From: Brachionus manjavacas
Taxonomy: Eukaryota; Rotifera; Eurotatoria; Ploima; Brachionidae
Length of the DNA: 64,000 nt
NCBI GenBank assembly: GCA_019054805.1
Contig: JAHQIY010000009.1
Location: 1 to 64,000 of the forward strand
Reading direction: 5' to 3'
Position numbers and translations under genes: made by a program
Notes under the pieces: generated by a model
Databases searched by the model: none
Told to the model about the DNA's origin: nothing
The model's input: only the letters and a program-made list of their open reading frames with translations
Part shown: in pieces, positions 49,740-64,000 of the stretch
Layout of the letters: every line of letters begins with the position of its first letter
How positions within the stretch are numbered: position 1 is the stretch's first letter

Positions 49740-50332
49740 CAGAGTTGGGAAACTGATACTGAATAACTGATCAGTATCAGTTAATTTCAGTTATCAGTTA
49801 AACTGAAACTAACCGATAACGTATTTTGAATTAACTGAGACTGACTGAAAACTGTTTAACTATTTATTTGAATTTTTGAAAATTTTTTTTTCGGTTTTAA
49901 TTTAGTTTTACACTTATATATTTTTTTGACTTGTTAGTAATGCTTTGCAATAAATAAAAAGCTAATATATACATTATCTAAACCTTTTTTATTTTCTTTT
50001 ATTTGAAATAAAGTTCATTTTAAAAATGTCAGAGATAAGGTCAGATTCTACATTTTTGATGAGACCACATAGAAGTAGATTCACTTATAAAAATTTATCA
50101 AATATAATGTTTCTAAAATGTAATAAAAAATATATGCAAATATCCGTTTTAAATGTTAATTAGGCTTTAATTTTTATAAACTGTTTAATAAATAAACTAA
50201 TTGTATCATTTTTCTAATTAACTGATTTTTAACTGATAACTGATACCCATTAACTGAGACTGATACTGAACTGATGCTCGAAAAACTGATACTGACTGAA
50301 AACTGATTTTTTTATAACTGATCCCAACTCTG
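49740..50332. mobile_element. Non-autonomous hAT element (MITE), 593 bp
   Basis: The element starts CAGAGTTGGGA and ends with the exact inverse TCCCAACTCTG, an 11-bp terminal inverted repeat of the hAT type. It is flanked by a perfect 8-bp target duplication GGTTTTTT (49732-49739 and 50333-50340). Removing the element and one duplication restores a normal satellite monomer, so both borders are exact. Both subterminal regions are packed with ACTGAT/ATCAGT hexamers, roughly five on the left and nine on the right, which resemble the subterminal transposase-binding repeats known in hAT elements. The interior is AT-rich with no useful open frame, so it would depend on a transposase supplied elsewhere. 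Confidence 0.93.
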
Positions 50333-53242: not shown

Positions 53243-54433
53243 CTAAAAAAAGAAATCATTAGTACGAGCAAAAAATCCAAGGAGTATTCCACTTGCAAAC
53301 ATGGACATCATTGCCACAATAGAACCAATAAAAAGATGTGAAGTACCAGAGATACCGTGTCCAGTGTTGCATCCACCAGCGAGTCTAGCACCAAAAACGA
53401 GTAAAAATCCACCCAAAACGGCATTGTAAGGGTGTACAGGTTGAGCTTTAGCAAAAACACCACCCAAGAAGGCGGAAGCCATACTTCCACCAAAAACGGA
53501 TAAAACAAACAAAATTGATAAATAATTGTTGAATCCAAATCTGAACTTTTTGAGGTATGGAAATCGTTCCAAAAGTTTAAATGGAAAAACCATGCTAACT
53601 GCTGTTGTAAAACTGCTAGATGAACCAAGAGACTTGGAAAGCAAGAGCAAAGAGAAAAATTGAAGAGAACCCAAGCAACATCCGCCAATAATTGGCTGCC
53701 ACACTTCACTAGTTACCGAGAAAAATGGTCTTGTACTATCTTTGAATGTGTAGTCTTTTTTCCATGGCACAAATACTTCCATCAAAGCAACACCAACTGC
53801 CAAAAGAACAATGAAAACAATGCGCACAATAATCGCATTCACTTTGATTACTTCGAACAATGTCTTTGATGTAATCGGGTCTGCTTTTGACGAACCTGTC
53901 AAGTATGTGTTGAGTAATCCGTGGACCAAACCTGCCATCAGTCCACCAACCAAAGTCAAATAGGAATAGTTGACACCAGCACCTAGTTGAACAAAAACCA
54001 TTCCTGGACATGATCCCCCCACAGTCATACCAAGTCCAAGAATAAGACCTCCAGCAGATACGATCAAAAGAGATTTTGACTTGAGCATTGTGCGATAGGA
54101 TTCAAACACTTTGTTGTATCGTTCTTTGGCTACAAAATTTAAAATAAATATGCTCACCGAAGAAGTTGCCAGGGCAGAGAGAAACATTTTCATCATGAGA
54201 AACTTGTTGAATATCATTTGTTGTCTAATAAATCTGGGCTCATAAACTTTACTCTTTTCCAATATGAAACCAAAAAAGAATCCAATTATTGCCATTACTA
54301 CTACCTTTATTATGGTTATTAGATTTTTTTTCCATTTGCTTTTTCCATTTTCTTCATTTTTTTCTTCATGTTTCTGTTCTTCTTTATTTTCAGACAAGTC
54401 AATATTTACACTCAAATTATTTTCTTCTTTCAT
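53243..54433 (-). CDS. YeeE/YedE-family (sulfur/thiosulfate transport) membrane protein, copy 1, intact
   Basis: This is a single uninterrupted frame of 396 codons for a polytopic membrane protein. Residues 1-38 are a charged E/K/N-rich cytosol-like tail, followed by about nine hydrophobic segments. Two family hallmarks are clear: GGSCPGMVFVQLGAG (139-153, Cys142) and GARLAGGCNTGHGISG (348-363, Cys355). A further GGCCLGSLQF lies at 250-259 (Cys252/253). In bacterial YeeE/TsuA, conserved cysteines in such motifs relay thiosulfate through the membrane, so sulfur-compound uptake is the likely role. The animal substrate is unknown. The ATG is the first in frame. A TATAAATA sits 35-42 bp upstream of it (54468-54475) and an ATTAAA-type polyadenylation signal (53223-53228) lies just after the stop. 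The gene has no introns. Large parts are identical at DNA level to the paralogue at 56349-57532. Origin by horizontal transfer is possible but untested. Confidence 0.9.
   Translation of the reverse strand: MKEENNLSVNIDLSENKEEQKHEEKNEENGKSKWKKNLITIIKVVVMAIIGFFFGFILEKSKVYEPRFIRQQMIFNKFLMMKMFLSALATSSVSIFILNFVAKERYNKVFESYRTMLKSKSLLIVSAGGLILGLGMTVGGSCPGMVFVQLGAGVNYSYLTLVGGLMAGLVHGLLNTYLTGSSKADPITSKTLFEVIKVNAIIVRIVFIVLLAVGVALMEVFVPWKKDYTFKDSTRPFFSVTSEVWQPIIGGCCLGSLQFFSLLLLSKSLGSSSSFTTAVSMVFPFKLLERFPYLKKFRFGFNNYLSILFVLSVFGGSMASAFLGGVFAKAQPVHPYNAVLGGFLLVFGARLAGGCNTGHGISGTSHLFIGSIVAMMSMFASGILLGFFARTNDFFF
53267..53458 (-). repeat. Identity tract A (192 bp) shared with 56373-56564
   Basis: The C-terminal coding part of copy 1 (from VFAKAQP through GCNTGHG to near the end) is identical, base for base as far as I can read, to 56373-56564 of copy 2. 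Identity stops abruptly on both sides. The last seven codons and all 3' flanking sequence differ, and the adjoining 160 bp (53459-53618) differ strongly. This is a probable gene-conversion tract. Confidence 0.88.
53619..54289 (-). repeat. Identity tract B (671 bp) shared with 56725-57394
   Basis: This tract covers residues about 49-273 of copy 1. Reading both copies side by side I find one substitution (G at 53675, A at 56781) and one single-base length difference in a T run (five T in copy 1, four in copy 2, coding strand). Identity ends abruptly at both sides within coding sequence. Silent sites are as identical as replacement sites, which points to recent conversion or duplication and not to selection on protein. 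Confidence 0.9.
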
Positions 54434-56348
54434 TTTCTTTTTTATTTCTTATGCCTGAAGAAAAAAATATTTATACCTTTTTGCTTTATGATCTAATGGG
54501 AAATTAATAATTTTTTTTTTTTACTTTTTTCAAAATTTAAAGAACAACGACTCCTTTTTCTAGATATACCTTGTTTATTTATTTTTGTCGAATCATTATT
54601 ATTAGTTAAAATTTTCCGTTCCCTTTATTTTTAATTCAAATATAATTAAATTTGAAATTATTCTTTAATTTAAATGCTCATTATCTTTCCTATTGATTTA
54701 CACTTAAAATAATTTTGTTTATACGTGGGTTTTTATTCACTTTATTTTTGCTAATTTTTACCATGGTTATCCTCCAACTTTTTCGCTTCATCAATTGAGA
54801 ATAAAAACATATCTACAATGTTTTTTCTTTTTCTTTAATTAAGTGTTTAAAAATATAATATAAATAAATATTAAAAGATAATTTTTATTCACTATAGTTT
54901 AACTATTTTAATTAAATCTTAAGTAAAAACTTACTTACGTTGTTTCTTGAAAATGATGTGCAGTTCTTAGTTTAATTAACTTCCATCACAATTGTCAAAA
55001 ATTTAGAGTTCTTAGTAAAAAATGAAAATTTTTGTCAATAATTTAATTTGAGATTTTTTCTTTTGAAAACTCAAATCAAATCTAATTATTTTTTTAAGGT
55101 ACTTAAAAATTTGAAAAAATCACGAATTAATTTATTTTTATTTGGAAAAAATTACTGTTCTTTAAACAGATATTTTTCATGATAAAGATGAAGATATCAA
55201 AAATATCTAATCCTTTTTTTTTTTAAATTATAATAATTGCGCACAAAAATTGTATTTTAAACTTTCAAAAATTATAAAGCTTAGTTGATAAAAATTGTTT
55301 TTTTATCTTGAAACTTTTTAAGAAAAATTGCTGGCTAAATATTTGATATTTAACTAGTATTTTCATTTAATGAAAAGGATTTGTTAAACCAAAAATTCAC
55401 ATTTTAGCAAAAAAATGAGTTTTTAAAGCCTCAAACTTAAAAACACTAATTTAATAGAGTTTTGATGATTATTATTATTCAATTACCAATTCATAATTTC
55501 TAAGCTTTTACACATTTATTTAATATACTGGTTTTTGAAGATTTAAAAAGTTAATTTTCTTTTTAGATAAATCCTTGCATTTCTGAACAAAATTTGCGCT
55601 AATTAGTTAGGAACTTAAAAAATTCACTCATTGCATAATTTTGCAAAATTATTTATATTAAGATTATAATAAAAAATAATTTATGCTGACAAATATTTAA
55701 AAAAATAAATAATCCAGTTTTTGAAAATATCCCAAAAATGTGTTAAATTTTAGGCTACCAATTTAAATACATTTAAATTTTCGATCTTTAAAATTAAAAA
55801 GACAATTATGATTTAAAGAAATAATTGGAACACCCTAAGTAGGAACAGTAATATCAGGAAATCAAAAAAAATTCTATGGAAAATTTCCTCAACATTAATC
55901 AAAATTTAATTGACATTCTAAAGAATATGGCTATAAAAGTATTTTTTTTAAAATTAATTTAAGAAATAATTTATTTATAAATACAAAAATCTATTGTCAA
56001 TTAAAAAATTCAACGTAAAAAATTATTTTTAATATTTAGAAGAGAACAAATTTCAAAAATTCCTTTAAACTAAATTTTATTTTTGCTTATATCTCTTGTA
56101 TAAAACTTTCGTAAAAATTTATTAACAATTTAATGGCCTGCAAAAACTTATAATTTCAAATTAATACATCTAAATTATAATTGTCTATTTTATTTGGAAA
56201 ATAAAATAATTTAAAAAATGACAAAAAACCATTAATAAAAAAGATTTTATAAATTAAATTTTGCTGAATCATGCCAATATTTATTTATTGTGTAAATTTA
56301 TCAAAAAGAAATTATAAAAGATTATAAAAAGATAATTAAGAGTTAAGT
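54434..56348. other. AT-rich intergenic spacer between the two YeeE/YedE copies
   Basis: This 1.9 kb stretch is rich in A/T runs and has no frame with coding character. Its left edge holds the putative promoter of copy 1 (TATAAATA on the minus strand at 54468-54475), and its right edge holds the 3' end signals of copy 2 (overlapping AATAAA on the minus strand, 56280-56289). I saw no repeat shared with the sequence upstream of copy 2, so the duplication unit does not visibly extend into the spacers. Confidence 0.7.
56280..56289 (-). promoter_or_regulatory. Candidate polyadenylation signal of copy 2 (overlapping AATAAA)
   Basis: The plus strand reads TTTATTTATT, giving two overlapping AATAAA hexamers on the minus strand about 60 bp past the stop codon of copy 2. 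Position and orientation fit. In DNA this AT-rich the hexamer also arises by chance. Confidence 0.45.
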
Positions 56349-56372
56349 TTATAAATAAAATTCGTTTGTCAA

Positions 56373-56564
56373 AGCAAAAAATCCAAGGAGTATTCCACTT
56401 GCAAACATGGACATCATTGCCACAATAGAACCAATAAAAAGATGTGAAGTACCAGAGATACCGTGTCCAGTGTTGCATCCACCAGCGAGTCTAGCACCAA
56501 AAACGAGTAAAAATCCACCCAAAACGGCATTGTAAGGGTGTACAGGTTGAGCTTTAGCAAAAAC
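56373..56564 (-). repeat. Identity tract A, copy 2 partner of 53267-53458
   Basis: These 192 bp match 53267-53458 without a visible difference and encode the conserved C-terminal motif region. The next 160 bp towards the N-terminus (56565-56724) are diverged from copy 1. Confidence 0.88.
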
Positions 56565-56724
56565 TCCTGAAAAATTTGATGAAGTAAAACTTCCCATTAA
56601 CACACTAAAAACAAACCCTAAAGTTCCAATATTGGATAAACCACCTCGAAAACGTTTTAAATAGGGAAAATTTTCCAATTGCTCTTTGCTTAATATAAAA
56701 CTAGCTAAAGAGCTAAAGGCACTT

Positions 56725-57394
56725 GATGAACCAAGAGACTTGGAAAGCAAGAGCAAAGAGAAAAATTGAAGAGAACCCAAACAACATCCGCCAATAATTG
56801 GCTGCCACACTTCACTAGTTACCGAGAAAAATGGTCTTGTACTATCTTTGAATGTGTAGTCTTTTTTCCATGGCACAAATACTTCCATCAAAGCAACACC
56901 AACTGCCAAAAGAACAATGAAAACAATGCGCACAATAATCGCATTCACTTTGATTACTTCGAACAATGTCTTTGATGTAATCGGGTCTGCTTTTGACGAA
57001 CCTGTCAAGTATGTGTTGAGTAATCCGTGGACCAAACCTGCCATCAGTCCACCAACCAAAGTCAAATAGGAATAGTTGACACCAGCACCTAGTTGAACAA
57101 AACCATTCCTGGACATGATCCCCCCACAGTCATACCAAGTCCAAGAATAAGACCTCCAGCAGATACGATCAAAAGAGATTTTGACTTGAGCATTGTGCGA
57201 TAGGATTCAAACACTTTGTTGTATCGTTCTTTGGCTACAAAATTTAAAATAAATATGCTCACCGAAGAAGTTGCCAGGGCAGAGAGAAACATTTTCATCA
57301 TGAGAAACTTGTTGAATATCATTTGTTGTCTAATAAATCTGGGCTCATAAACTTTACTCTTTTCCAATATGAAACCAAAAAAGAATCCAATTAT
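56725..57394 (-). repeat. Identity tract B, copy 2 partner of 53619-54289
   Basis: These 670 bp differ from the copy 1 tract by one substitution and the one-base T-run deletion that causes the frameshift. Upstream of 57394 the coding sequence for the first ~50 residues is unrelated at DNA level. Confidence 0.9.
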
Positions 57395-57532
57395 AGATGA
57401 TAACAAAATTATTTTTAAATCATCACTTTTTTCATATTTTTGATTCCCTTTGCTCATTTTTTCTTCGATTACTTCTTTTTGTCCATCACTTAAATTTCTT
57501 TTTCTTAAATCGGGTTGATTTAGCTCGTTCAT

Positions 57533-59540: not shown

Positions 59541-60293
59541 ATGTAAAGTGATGCACTATGGTACAAATAACCCGAATTTCAACTACACAATTAATCAAAC
59601 GAGTAATTCGAAAACAGAGGCAGAACGAGATCTAGGGATAATAATTACGAACAATTTGAAGTAGTCAAATCAAGTCAACACCGCCGCAAATAAAGCTAAT
59701 TTAGTTTTGGGCTCAATAAGGCGAACTATCAAATACCAGAATGAAGAAACAGTAAATAGGCTATATAAAGCTTTTGATTGTCCGTATCTAGAGTATGGAG
59801 TACAAGTTTGGAACCCGTACTAAAAAAAGACATCAAGGTCTTAGAATCAGTCCAGAGAAGAGCTACTAAATTGGTTACAGAACTAAAAAAGCTAAGCTAT
59901 TCAGGAAGATTAGCTGCATTGAATTTAACCAGCCTAGAGACCAGAAGATTAAGAGGGTATCTGATCGAGATGCTTAAAATTATAAAAGGGCACGACAAGA
60001 TTAACTGGCATGTATCCCTAGTCTTCAAGAATAATCCAGAAAATACGTTTCGTCCAACCCCTAGACGTCATGATTTTACGTTAGAAAGACAATTAGTAAA
60101 GAACTGTGAGCAAAGATTTAATTTTTTCAGCAACAGAGTGATCAATGTTTGGAATCGACTTAACAGAGACGTTATTAATTCAGATACAGTAAATGTTTTT
60201 AAAAACAAAATTGATAAACTTGATTTAAACAAGCTATTATGATGAGGCTTAACCCTCGTTCCATGTGCTTGCACATTAAAGCTTTCATTTTAT
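59541..60293 (+). mobile_element. 5'-truncated LINE (non-LTR retrotransposon, CR1/Jockey-like), 3' 753 bp
   Basis: The fragment encodes the end of a reverse-transcriptase ORF. It begins in TCKVMHYGTNNPNF, then KTEAERDLGIIITNNLK (typical '...LGVxx...LKW'; here the W codon is TAG), ANKANLVLGSIRR, and VNRLYKAF...YLEYGVQVWNP. After a frame change comes KKDIKVLESVQRRATKLV, LSYSGRLAALNLTSLETRR, and the usual tail FFSNRVINVWNRLN...FKNKIDKL, ending in TGA at 60242. The last 154-codon open frame (59778-60242) is the longest surviving piece. AAAAAACAACAGAAAC (59525-59540) and AAAAAACAATTGAAAC (60294-60309) look like a 16-bp target duplication with two changes. That gives the insertion borders and shows 5' truncation on arrival. 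The fragment is inactive. Confidence 0.88.
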
Positions 60294-61487: not shown

Positions 61488-64000
61488 TTAAATGTGAATA
61501 TCATCATCAAATGCTTGGTTTACAGTCTGTTCTTGTGACTCGAATATGATGTTGCCTTTGCCGAATGAATTCAATTGATCCGTAGTAGAGCTTATGGAAG
61601 ATATAGAATTTTTGGCACCGCTTGAATTCGAACTTGGACTAAAATCCAAAATTGAAGTGGAACTTGACGAATTTTCTCTCATTCGTGACACTTTTTTTTC
61701 TCGAAATCTGCCAATAAATGAAATAGAACTTTTGCTCTCTTTCCGCTGACTCGAGAACTTGTTTGAAAAATATTTCTTGTACAAGTTAATCACATCTTTG
61801 CGGAATAGAAAAGCAAAAAATATGAAAACACCAATTGATGCATTCAACAAAATAAACATATAAGTTAGAATATTGAATACTATTCGAATGAATACAGAAG
61901 ATTGTGAATCGGGTGACGTTGAGGTCAGAAAAAATCCTATTATCCAAGTAAAGCCCATGATGCAGGCTATCTGAATATAGAACTTGACGTCCTCGTCACC
62001 CGGAAGCTTTACATTGGACATTCGACGCAGTTTCTTCTTTTGCTCCATCTTCTTCTTTCTGATATTATAAATAGTCAAAAAATAAAAATATCCATTGACC
62101 AAAATGATGATTCCAATGGGAAGGCCAAAATAGATCAAGTTAGCTCGGCCGTTTCGGATCCAACATGGTCCATTTACTATAAAAACAGTTAGGTTCTTTG
62201 CTCTCTCTTTTTCACATGATGTGTCATTGAAAAAATTGTCTCTGACAGTCTTGTTAGCTAGGCTCTCGTTGTAATTGACATAGTAGGTTTCTGACTCAAA
62301 GCTACATCCATTCAAATAACCTGCATAGCATGGTCTATACGCAGTGTTTGAATTAACACTTAGATCTACAATCAAGCCAGAGATGATGATCACTAGTGGT
62401 ATTATCCACGCGTAAAGAGAATACTTTGGTAAGCGTTCTTTCAGCCGGATGGCCTGTATCAAGATTAGAGATGATTTGTCGCAAAAGTTGCGGTACAGGT
62501 CAAAAGCTATCACGTTCATCCAGAAAAAAGAGGCTAACAAACCGTAATGGGTGAGTATGCTCAGAATGAAACACAAAAGAGGAAACAAATTCAAAAAAGA
62601 ACCGAGCAAAAAACAAAATTGAGCTAGTGTTAGTGCCACAGTTACATTGATGATGTTCCATCCGGGCAAATTTCGCATTTGTTTAAAAATGAAATAAGTG
62701 AGCAAAGTTAAGAACATGAAAAAAAGGGATATTACAGTGCTGAGAAAAGATACCCACCCGGATATTGTTTTGTTTAGGTCGGTTTTAATGTTCAAATTGA
62801 AGCCTGACTCTTGGTGAAAATCATCCGATTTACAAACTCTGATGTATTCACCGGGCACTATGGGATCATACTCGTATTCGTCCAGGAAATAGCACTTGTT
62901 CAAGGCTGGCGAGCAGTATGATCTATCAGGCATCTTTTTGAGCTCACACAGTCGCAATCGAACTGTGGCATAATTTTTGCACTCAACCCTAATCTTTGGT
63001 CTTCGATTGCACACGTGCAAAAGCTTGCTAGAGGCGACACTTGTTGAATTGTTGTCCAGTACAATGTCGGTCACATCGGCCAGCTGAAGTAAATTTAAAT
63101 GAGGGCTCAGTTCTCTTTTGGCTGCATACATTTGATCATCAGATATTATTTGGTGAAAGCTGGCATCAAACACCACATTGTGAAACAGATCGCTTTTTTC
63201 AATCAAAAGTGGTTTTTTAGTTGTGACCGAATCACTGTCCGGCTTCTTGATGTACAAAACTGTCAAGTAGTAATAGCCAGTTCCGTATAGGGTCTCGGTC
63301 TGGTTGACATAAACATAATACTTTGGCAATTTTGGATCTTTGAACGAGGCAAAAATTCTAAAATTGTCGCGAAAAGTTAGCTTTTCGTCTCCGGGCAGAG
63401 TACACCATCCGTCATCCTTGGACTCTTTTATCTCAATGGCTTCATTTAGAAAGCACTGATGCTTGTCAATGTTAAAGTATCTTTTGTCCATTGCCAGCAT
63501 GTTCAGAAGGTAGAATAAAATGATTGTTTCTTTGGTTTCATTTGCAAATAGCTTCATGTCTTTGATTAAAAAAGAAATTTTGAGCAGTTCTTGTGATTCA
63601 GTGATCAAAAGTCGATGCTCATTGTGATCCAGATATTTGTTGGAATCGGCATCAGCACTTCTTTTCAAGTACTGTATTGTGGTGTCATTGTGAATTTGGT
63701 ATGAGACTAGATTAAAATCTTCTATGCGGCTTGAATTAATGTGCAATACCTTGGCAAAGCTGTTTTTGAGAGCTTCTAAAAGATTGTCACTTGGTGTCAT
63801 TACTTGTTTGTGTTCACACGACTTAGTATCATTCTGGCCGTGATAGAACACACATAGCTTATGAATGAGAGTTATTTGGATGTTCATTTGTGATGGCGGC
63901 TTCTTGATCGGCTCCGAGTATTCTGTCTTGTTGAAATTCACATCTTGAATACATCCATTTGGACCCAAAATGTAGCCTTCGACACAGAATACGTCACGGC
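61488..64000 (-). CDS. Methuselah-like / secretin-class (family B) G-protein-coupled receptor, 5' end outside window
   Basis: The frame is open from the window edge to the stop at 61488 (837 codons), so the N-terminus and any signal peptide are missing. Numbering below starts at the codon at 63968. Residues 1-400 are an ectodomain with many NxS/T sites and cysteines clustered at 320-379. Seven membrane helices follow at about 404-429, 437-460, 463-492, 517-538, 609-634, 662-684 and 693-722. Family marks are FFWMNVIAFDLYRNF in helix 3, the long cysteine-bearing second extracellular loop (about 539-608), CWIRNGRANLIYFGLPIGI entering helix 5, and IMGFTWIIGFF in helix 6. The cytoplasmic tail (723-826) is serine-rich, which fits phosphorylation and arrestin control. 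No GPS autoproteolysis motif is seen, so Methuselah-like is favoured over adhesion GPCR. The upstream residues DVFCVEGYILGPNGC could end an EGF-like or another cysteine module. The ligand is unknown. Confidence 0.92.
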   Translation of the reverse strand, partial: RDVFCVEGYILGPNGCIQDVNFNKTEYSEPIKKPPSQMNIQITLIHKLCVFYHGQNDTKSCEHKQVMTPSDNLLEALKNSFAKVLHINSSRIEDFNLVSYQIHNDTTIQYLKRSADADSNKYLDHNEHRLLITESQELLKISFLIKDMKLFANETKETIILFYLLNMLAMDKRYFNIDKHQCFLNEAIEIKESKDDGWCTLPGDEKLTFRDNFRIFASFKDPKLPKYYVYVNQTETLYGTGYYYLTVLYIKKPDSDSVTTKKPLLIEKSDLFHNVVFDASFHQIISDDQMYAAKRELSPHLNLLQLADVTDIVLDNNSTSVASSKLLHVCNRRPKIRVECKNYATVRLRLCELKKMPDRSYCSPALNKCYFLDEYEYDPIVPGEYIRVCKSDDFHQESGFNLNIKTDLNKTISGWVSFLSTVISLFFMFLTLLTYFIFKQMRNLPGWNIINVTVALTLAQFCFLLGSFLNLFPLLCFILSILTHYGLLASFFWMNVIAFDLYRNFCDKSSLILIQAIRLKERLPKYSLYAWIIPLVIIISGLIVDLSVNSNTAYRPCYAGYLNGCSFESETYYVNYNESLANKTVRDNFFNDTSCEKERAKNLTVFIVNGPCWIRNGRANLIYFGLPIGIIILVNGYFYFLTIYNIRKKKMEQKKKLRRMSNVKLPGDEDVKFYIQIACIMGFTWIIGFFLTSTSPDSQSSVFIRIVFNILTYMFILLNASIGVFIFFAFLFRKDVINLYKKYFSNKFSSQRKESKSSISFIGRFREKKVSRMRENSSSSTSILDFSPSSNSSGAKNSISSISSTTDQLNSFGKGNIIFESQEQTVNQAFDDDIHI

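Follow-up and report, generated by a model that had tools for sequence, protein, structure and literature searches.

Interlocus gene conversion is a well-known process. In the Brachionus plicatilis complex, it is described for the small gene family mmr-b, which evolves in concert by conversion between loci and whose terminal repeats are less alike, an effect that its authors put down to dissimilar flanks (PMC3495898). The locus described here appears to be a similar case. It concerns two neighbouring genes for YeeE/YedE-type membrane proteins, which we call copies A and B, in the rotifer Brachionus manjavacas. They lie in the opening 64 kb of contig JAHQIY010000009.1 (C9; 3,943,786 bases) of the assembly GCA_019054805.1 (114,169,980 bases, 61 contigs), and we refer to this whole stretch of 64,000 nucleotides as the window.

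The closest solved relatives of these proteins are structures of YeeE (TsuA), the thiosulfate transporter of Spirochaeta thermophila (6leo, 8j4c; E 1.5e-8 for 6leo), which belongs to the same Pfam family as copy A, PF04143, and whose relay comprises C293, C91 and C22 (PMC11073785). The Pfam profile of this family (Sulf_transp, gathering score 27 bits) is exceeded by copy A (143.3 bits, E 1.6e-41), by the two pieces of copy B (94.6 and 39.7 bits) and by a third copy, C, which a DNA search of the assembly located on contig C34 (553184-554386; intact, 400 aa; 142.7 bits). The scores with the NCBIfam TsuA/YeeE models are far under the curated cut-offs (NF041049 and NF052577; 20.9 of 645 and 46.2 of 400 bits), so that thiosulfate transport by these copies is a guess at the level of the family, made from sequence. 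A literature search of limited depth yielded no description that we recognised of this family in a rotifer.

Copies A and B form a sharp mosaic of shared and unrelated segments, all on the reverse strand:

53243 to 54433, reverse strand: copy A, an intact, intronless open reading frame (ORF) of 396 aa encoding a YeeE/YedE-type (PF04143) membrane protein; putative donor.
56349 to 57532, reverse strand: copy B, its paralogue, two ORFs as assembled; putative recipient.
57089 to 57532 (147 aa) and 56349 to 57116 (255 aa), reverse strand: the two ORFs of copy B, from the ORF list.
53619 to 54289, reverse strand: long shared tract in copy A, 671 bp.
56725 to 57394, reverse strand: long shared tract in copy B, 670 bp, presumably derived from copy A.
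53267 to 53458, reverse strand: short shared tract in copy A, 192 bp, the same as in copy B.
56373 to 56564, reverse strand: short shared tract in copy B, 192 bp, presumably derived from copy A.
53459 to 53618, reverse strand: island in copy A, 160 bp, covering a loop and one predicted helix; resembles copy C.
56565 to 56724, reverse strand: island in copy B, 160 bp, in open frame; B's own sequence, apparently not overwritten.
54290 to 54433, reverse strand: N-terminal coding end of copy A, 48 codons, A's own; it aligns with the end of copy B only as chance would allow.
57395 to 57532, reverse strand: N-terminal coding end of copy B, 46 codons, B's own, apparently unconverted.

We consider it probable that copy B recently received the sequence of both tracts from copy A by ectopic gene conversion, as part of a three-copy family that evolves in concert, and that the island was spared by its prior divergence. 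On this view, a single bacterial-type gene for a YeeE/YedE membrane protein is represented by three old paralogues, A, B and C, and the transfer into the two tracts of copy B would be recent, as these now differ from A by just one substitution and one deletion.

This view rests, first of all, on the distribution of the differences between A and B. The short tract has none over its 192 bp, and the long tract has a single, synonymous substitution (A 53675, B 56781) and a single 1-bp indel in a run of T on the coding strand (five in A, 53993-53997; four in B, 57099-57102). Of the 80 differences at the 1019 body sites compared, 79 fall inside the island, a clustering that was equalled in none of 20,000 random placements. 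Counted codon by codon, the differences amount to 3/672 sites in the long tract, two of these three being island-edge sites moved there by codon rounding, 77/162 in the island and 0/183 in the short tract. Silent sites follow the same pattern: 1 of 107 four-fold sites differs in the long tract and none of 35 in the short one, and the synonymous divergence (dS; Nei-Gojobori, own script) is 0.007 in the long tract, about 2 and thus saturated in the island, and 0 in the short tract. At the protein level, 31 of 54 island residues differ and 23 are alike, with edges rounded to codons. In a three-sequence mosaic test, the informative sites reach a maximum descent of 63, a value that none of 200,000 shuffles attained (at most 40), and the longest run of agreement between A and B spans 39 of 145 polymorphic sites, whereas none of 200,000 shuffles gave a run longer than 18. 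The loci therefore share tracts that, this one substitution aside, are identical at silent sites and that end sharply within homologous sequence and inside the reading frame, as is expected of conversion. The original prediction, made from the letters of the window, had described the two tracts with these lengths and differences, the intervening 160 bp of equal length encoding segments about 40% alike, and abrupt breaks of identity within coding sequence that include silent sites; each of these points held on re-examination, as did its statement that termini and spacers are unrelated, since nothing but short AT-rich matches is shared by the two copies in the spacer and outside the gene pair.

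The last of these observations bears on two histories that invoke duplication. Recent tandem duplication was rejected, as flanks and spacers are not duplicated and the ends are unrelated. Alternatively, copy B could be a recent duplicate of A that obtained its island and both ends from a fourth paralogue, since lost. Such a divergent island donor is formally possible, but with unrelated flanks, the duplication would have had to end within coding sequence at both sides and come to lie in frame with another start and stop. Neither did a fourth copy turn up: among the best candidates scored, neither A nor B as a DNA query found any copy in the assembly beyond A, B and C, and protein searches added nothing to these three, although a strongly diverged or spliced copy would escape such searches. 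We find this history hardly credible.

Copy C adds a direction to the transfer. Within the tracts, the distance to C is the same for A as for B (44/675 and 44/672 differences in the long tract, codon-wise; 4/183 each in the short tract), yet in the island, B is the outlier: among 162 sites, A and C differ at 16 (146 alike, or about 90%, with codon-rounded edges), A and B at 77, and B and C at 82. A and C thus pair up, with B having the sequence of A in the tracts, which marks B as the recipient and A as the donor. Had the transfer run from B to A, a direction that we rejected, the tracts of A should lie roughly as distant from C as the island of B does. The donor appears to have been retained without reciprocal exchange, A being intact with a C-like island and B having the outlying one, as judged from one outgroup copy. 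Moreover, B must have existed before the transfer, because it has its own start, first 46 codons, last 8 codons, stop and flanks. Recent ectopic conversion between old paralogues, as first proposed from the sequence, is therefore well supported, and the comparison with C orients it from A to B.

A mosaic that is older and fainter is apparent between A and C. At silent sites, these two diverge by 0.234 across the long tract, by 0.435 across the island and by 0.070 across the short tract; by Fisher tests on silent sites, the short tract differs from the island (p 0.0033) and from the long tract (p 0.042). A and C show no difference over the final 138 bp of the body, a run equally long in only 86 of 20,000 shuffles, and in 718 of 20,000, a weaker result, when only degenerate codons are considered. 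At the other end, 43.1% of 102 aligned sites differ between the N-terminal coding ends, directly beside the long tract at 6.5%. This pattern fits repeated conversion among the three loci that spared the same parts, with the contribution of the island being no more than suggestive. The abrupt N-terminal break and the uneven silent divergence would then mean that the three copies were homogenized more than once.

As assembled, copy B is interrupted by the indel in its long tract:

57099 to 57102, reverse strand: run of four T in copy B (five in A and C); the loss of 1 bp causes a frameshift and may be an assembly error.

The missing T leads to a stop at codon 148. As a control, we considered the histone genes of the assembly, for which the profile PF00125 gave 60 matches, five of them with internal stops. 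Four short-looking matches were picked, and one or two fuller siblings served as the reference for each. In three of them, a homopolymer has lost 1 bp no more than about 10 bp from the end of the match, two in five-base A/T runs shortened to four and one in a seven-base run, although these three are 98.4-99.7% identical to their fuller siblings; the fourth aligns over 288 bp only, without gaps, and is short for another reason. The three are:

C38, 272.4 kb; C2, 3903.6 kb; C1, 5479.3 kb: histone matches cut short near a homopolymer deletion.

These three are probable residual assembly errors. As the deletion in copy B is like those in such highly conserved genes, its frameshift is likely an assembly error as well, albeit without proof; with four hand-picked matches, the control gives only a rough error rate, and natural histone pseudogenes could be among them. 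In practice, single-base frameshifts in this assembly should not be taken as pseudogenes without reads.

Such errors raise the question of whether the mosaic itself could be an artefact, either as a chimera, which the original prediction had named as the main alternative, or as a consensus of B contaminated by reads from A. The residual homopolymer deletions and the contigs ending in satellite DNA (see below) speak for this. However, a chimera would need four switches in the space of 1.2 kb, at homologous points that are in frame and between copies with different flanks, and B has a C-like base at the sole substituted site of the long tract. The older mosaic between A and C, with C on another contig, also argues against an artefact, and the uncorrected homopolymers suggest that there was no strong short-read polishing, which would be a likely route for overwriting. 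We consider an artefact highly improbable.

Why, then, did the island stay different? To judge its conservation, we turned to bacterial relatives, which are mostly split into two genes: one for a C-half (about 190 aa) and, behind it, one for an N-half (DUF6691). We saw this order in the three plasmid loci that we opened and in many, uncounted genome loci. A scan of genome contigs with an alignment of the C-half family gave at least 596 matched stretches, at least 548 of them encoding a relative. Of these, we retained the best 80, of which 79 yielded an ORF with the family motif; the 71 ORFs of 160-240 aa among them entered the comparison. Across these 71 C-halves, the mean frequency of the top residue is 0.38 in the island region, 0.48 in the neighbouring part of the long tract and 0.68 in the short tract. 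Residues 298-305 of A, within the island region, correspond to a stretch absent from most of them, and the region has a single invariant glycine, G316, which A, B and C all retain. A new bacterial import of the B island found no support, as its mean identity to the 71 C-halves (0.187) resembles that of the A island (0.172) and the C island (0.180). An AlphaFold2 model built from C-half relatives only was poor overall (predicted local distance difference test, pLDDT, 63.2; predicted template modelling score, pTM, 0.42), with ten-residue blocks from 271 to 320 scoring 82-94 and a helix at 301-322 of good local confidence, the only feature of the model on which we rely; when the model was compared with the PDB by Foldseek, no entry reached E <= 0.001, and one matched at 9.7. 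A joint alignment of N- and C-halves placed N-halves on the C-half, with one group misplaced in 24 of 25 trial mixtures, and was not used for folding.

The original prediction had suggested that selection keeps the island distinct, for instance for substrate specificity. In its fuller form, the conversion would have been the same, and selection would have purged B alleles with an overwritten island, for example owing to a different substrate or partner preference. In line with this, the B island is an open frame of equal length that retains the glycine invariant in the 71 bacterial relatives, its nonsynonymous divergence from A (dN 0.61, against a saturated dS of about 2) suggests past constraint, and B may be intact if its T run is an assembly error. 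Yet we found the claim unsupported. The relay cysteines C91 and C293 of S. thermophila YeeE align with C142 and C355 of A, both of which sit in the converted tracts, while the third relay position, C22, faces Y64. In addition, the island is less conserved in bacteria than the short tract and somewhat less than the long-tract part, and B is broken as assembled. Finally, silent sites between A and C also diverge more in the island than in any other part of the body, clearly so only against the short tract, and selection on the protein does not directly predict such a peak. We therefore regard a role of selection as unlikely.

A broader version would see the three genes as a constant scaffold with a variable cassette, in which conversion among satellite-linked copies homogenizes the scaffold and selection keeps the loop-and-helix cassette and the tails different. 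This we find distinctly doubtful; if true, it would mean that copies of a bacterial-type transporter in an animal differ in what is carried or bound.

As a further alternative, one long conversion could first have covered the whole gene body of B, and later recombination with an unconverted B allele could have restored the 160-bp island. Both tracts have diverged equally and very little from A, with a single substitution and a single indel over about 670 bp and no change over 192 bp, as from one event, and the organism is presumably diploid and sexual. On the other hand, a second short exchange is needed, with both of its edges around the most divergent segment, and the tendency of A and C to diverge more in the island is left unexplained. 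This scenario thus seems to us rather unlikely, if worth keeping in mind.

We prefer that the island was spared by conversion, probably because it was already too divergent for pairing. A segment that escapes a few rounds of conversion would diverge, resist further conversion and so become a lasting island.

Several points weigh against the reading of recent A-to-B conversion with an island spared by divergence. The silent divergence between A and C in the island does not differ significantly from that in the long tract (p 0.12, Fisher test), and the heterogeneity of the three segments over all sites is weak (p 0.025). The direction of transfer depends on a single outgroup copy, and the evidence covers one genome assembly. 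Moreover, conversion can leave a 160-bp island only through two separate tracts, through repair in patches or through being partly reversed afterwards, and each of these fits the data alike. Lastly, the role of the satellite DNA near the genes, to which we turn now, is an association seen for three genes in two locations.

1 to 49739, no strand: array of a 337-bp satellite that opens contig C9 and comprises about 148 copies.

This array ends 3.5 kb from copy A and 6.6 kb from copy B. On C34, this satellite, about 96% alike, forms a second array that extends from about 555.1-555.4 kb to the contig end, and the distance between it and copy C is 0.7-1.0 kb. The satellite was also seen on contigs C28 (1-3000 and about 39.4-49.2 kb) and C37 (1-3000 and 20.0-29.9 kb), so that it occupies a contig end, with a period of 336-338 bp, in all four contigs inspected; C28 and C37 were chosen from satellite search hits (2 of 296 candidates scored) and are a non-random sample. 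Proximity of chromosome ends or of heterochromatin to one another could bring A, B and C together. The period differs from those of the main satellite monomers of Brachionus asplanchnoidis, 154 and 143 bp (PMC8447722).

At the edge of the array, an element at 49740-50332 has perfect 11-bp inverted ends (CAGAGTTGGGA), and by eye the satellite resumes behind it. It may be a non-autonomous transposon of the hAT type, judging by what appears, by eye, to be a target duplication of 8 bp (GGTTTTTT). Downstream of the two genes, an ORF at 59778-60239 (forward strand, 154 aa) without a Pfam match resembles the end of a reverse transcriptase of a long interspersed nuclear element (LINE). It is followed by an ORF of 836 codons at 61491-63998 (reverse strand), open to the window edge, with a secretin-type seven-transmembrane (7TM) domain of the G protein-coupled receptors (GPCR), which points to animal DNA. 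With regard to a possible horizontal acquisition, the gene is found as an intronless ORF on a 3.94-Mb contig that also contains the satellite and the GPCR gene.

Contigs of bacterial appearance occur elsewhere in the assembly. Among the best candidates scored, the Pfam profile search adds only one gene to the three copies. It is on contig C21 (1,221,242 bases), which looks bacterial by the neighbours of this gene, a coenzyme A (CoA)-disulfide reductase gene and, by eye, a PTS-like gene; elsewhere, the contig has a COX1-family gene. Contig C45 contains a full-length bacterial 16S rRNA gene (135960-137516, 1516 bits), gammaproteobacterial by eye, and is likely a second bacterial contig.

No close bacterial relative of the copies emerged from the scans of genome contigs and the comparisons with plasmid loci. 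Scans with an alignment of the three copies found no relative in genome or viral contigs, and neither did the scan of viral contigs with the C-half family alignment. Over the half that aligns, the bacterial proteins share about 25-34% identity with the animal one, and each half of the split YeeE/YedE and DUF6691 pairs in the three plasmid loci is 28-31% identical to the animal protein. Two of these three loci lie beside metallo-β-lactamase (MBL)-fold genes, one of them also with a rhodanese gene. The organization differs as well: the bacterial pair consists of separate genes with the C-half first, whereas in the animal a single intronless ORF begins with the N-half.

With three copies, sharp edges and support from silent sites, the locus offers an unusually clean record of conversion that includes its direction, and it may serve as a test case for whether islands in converted genes persist through divergence alone or through selection. 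It appears to share with mmr-b the concerted evolution of a small gene family by interlocus conversion. Here, however, an internal 160-bp island interrupts the homogenized part, and the product is a bacterial-type membrane protein rather than a repeat-containing mating protein.

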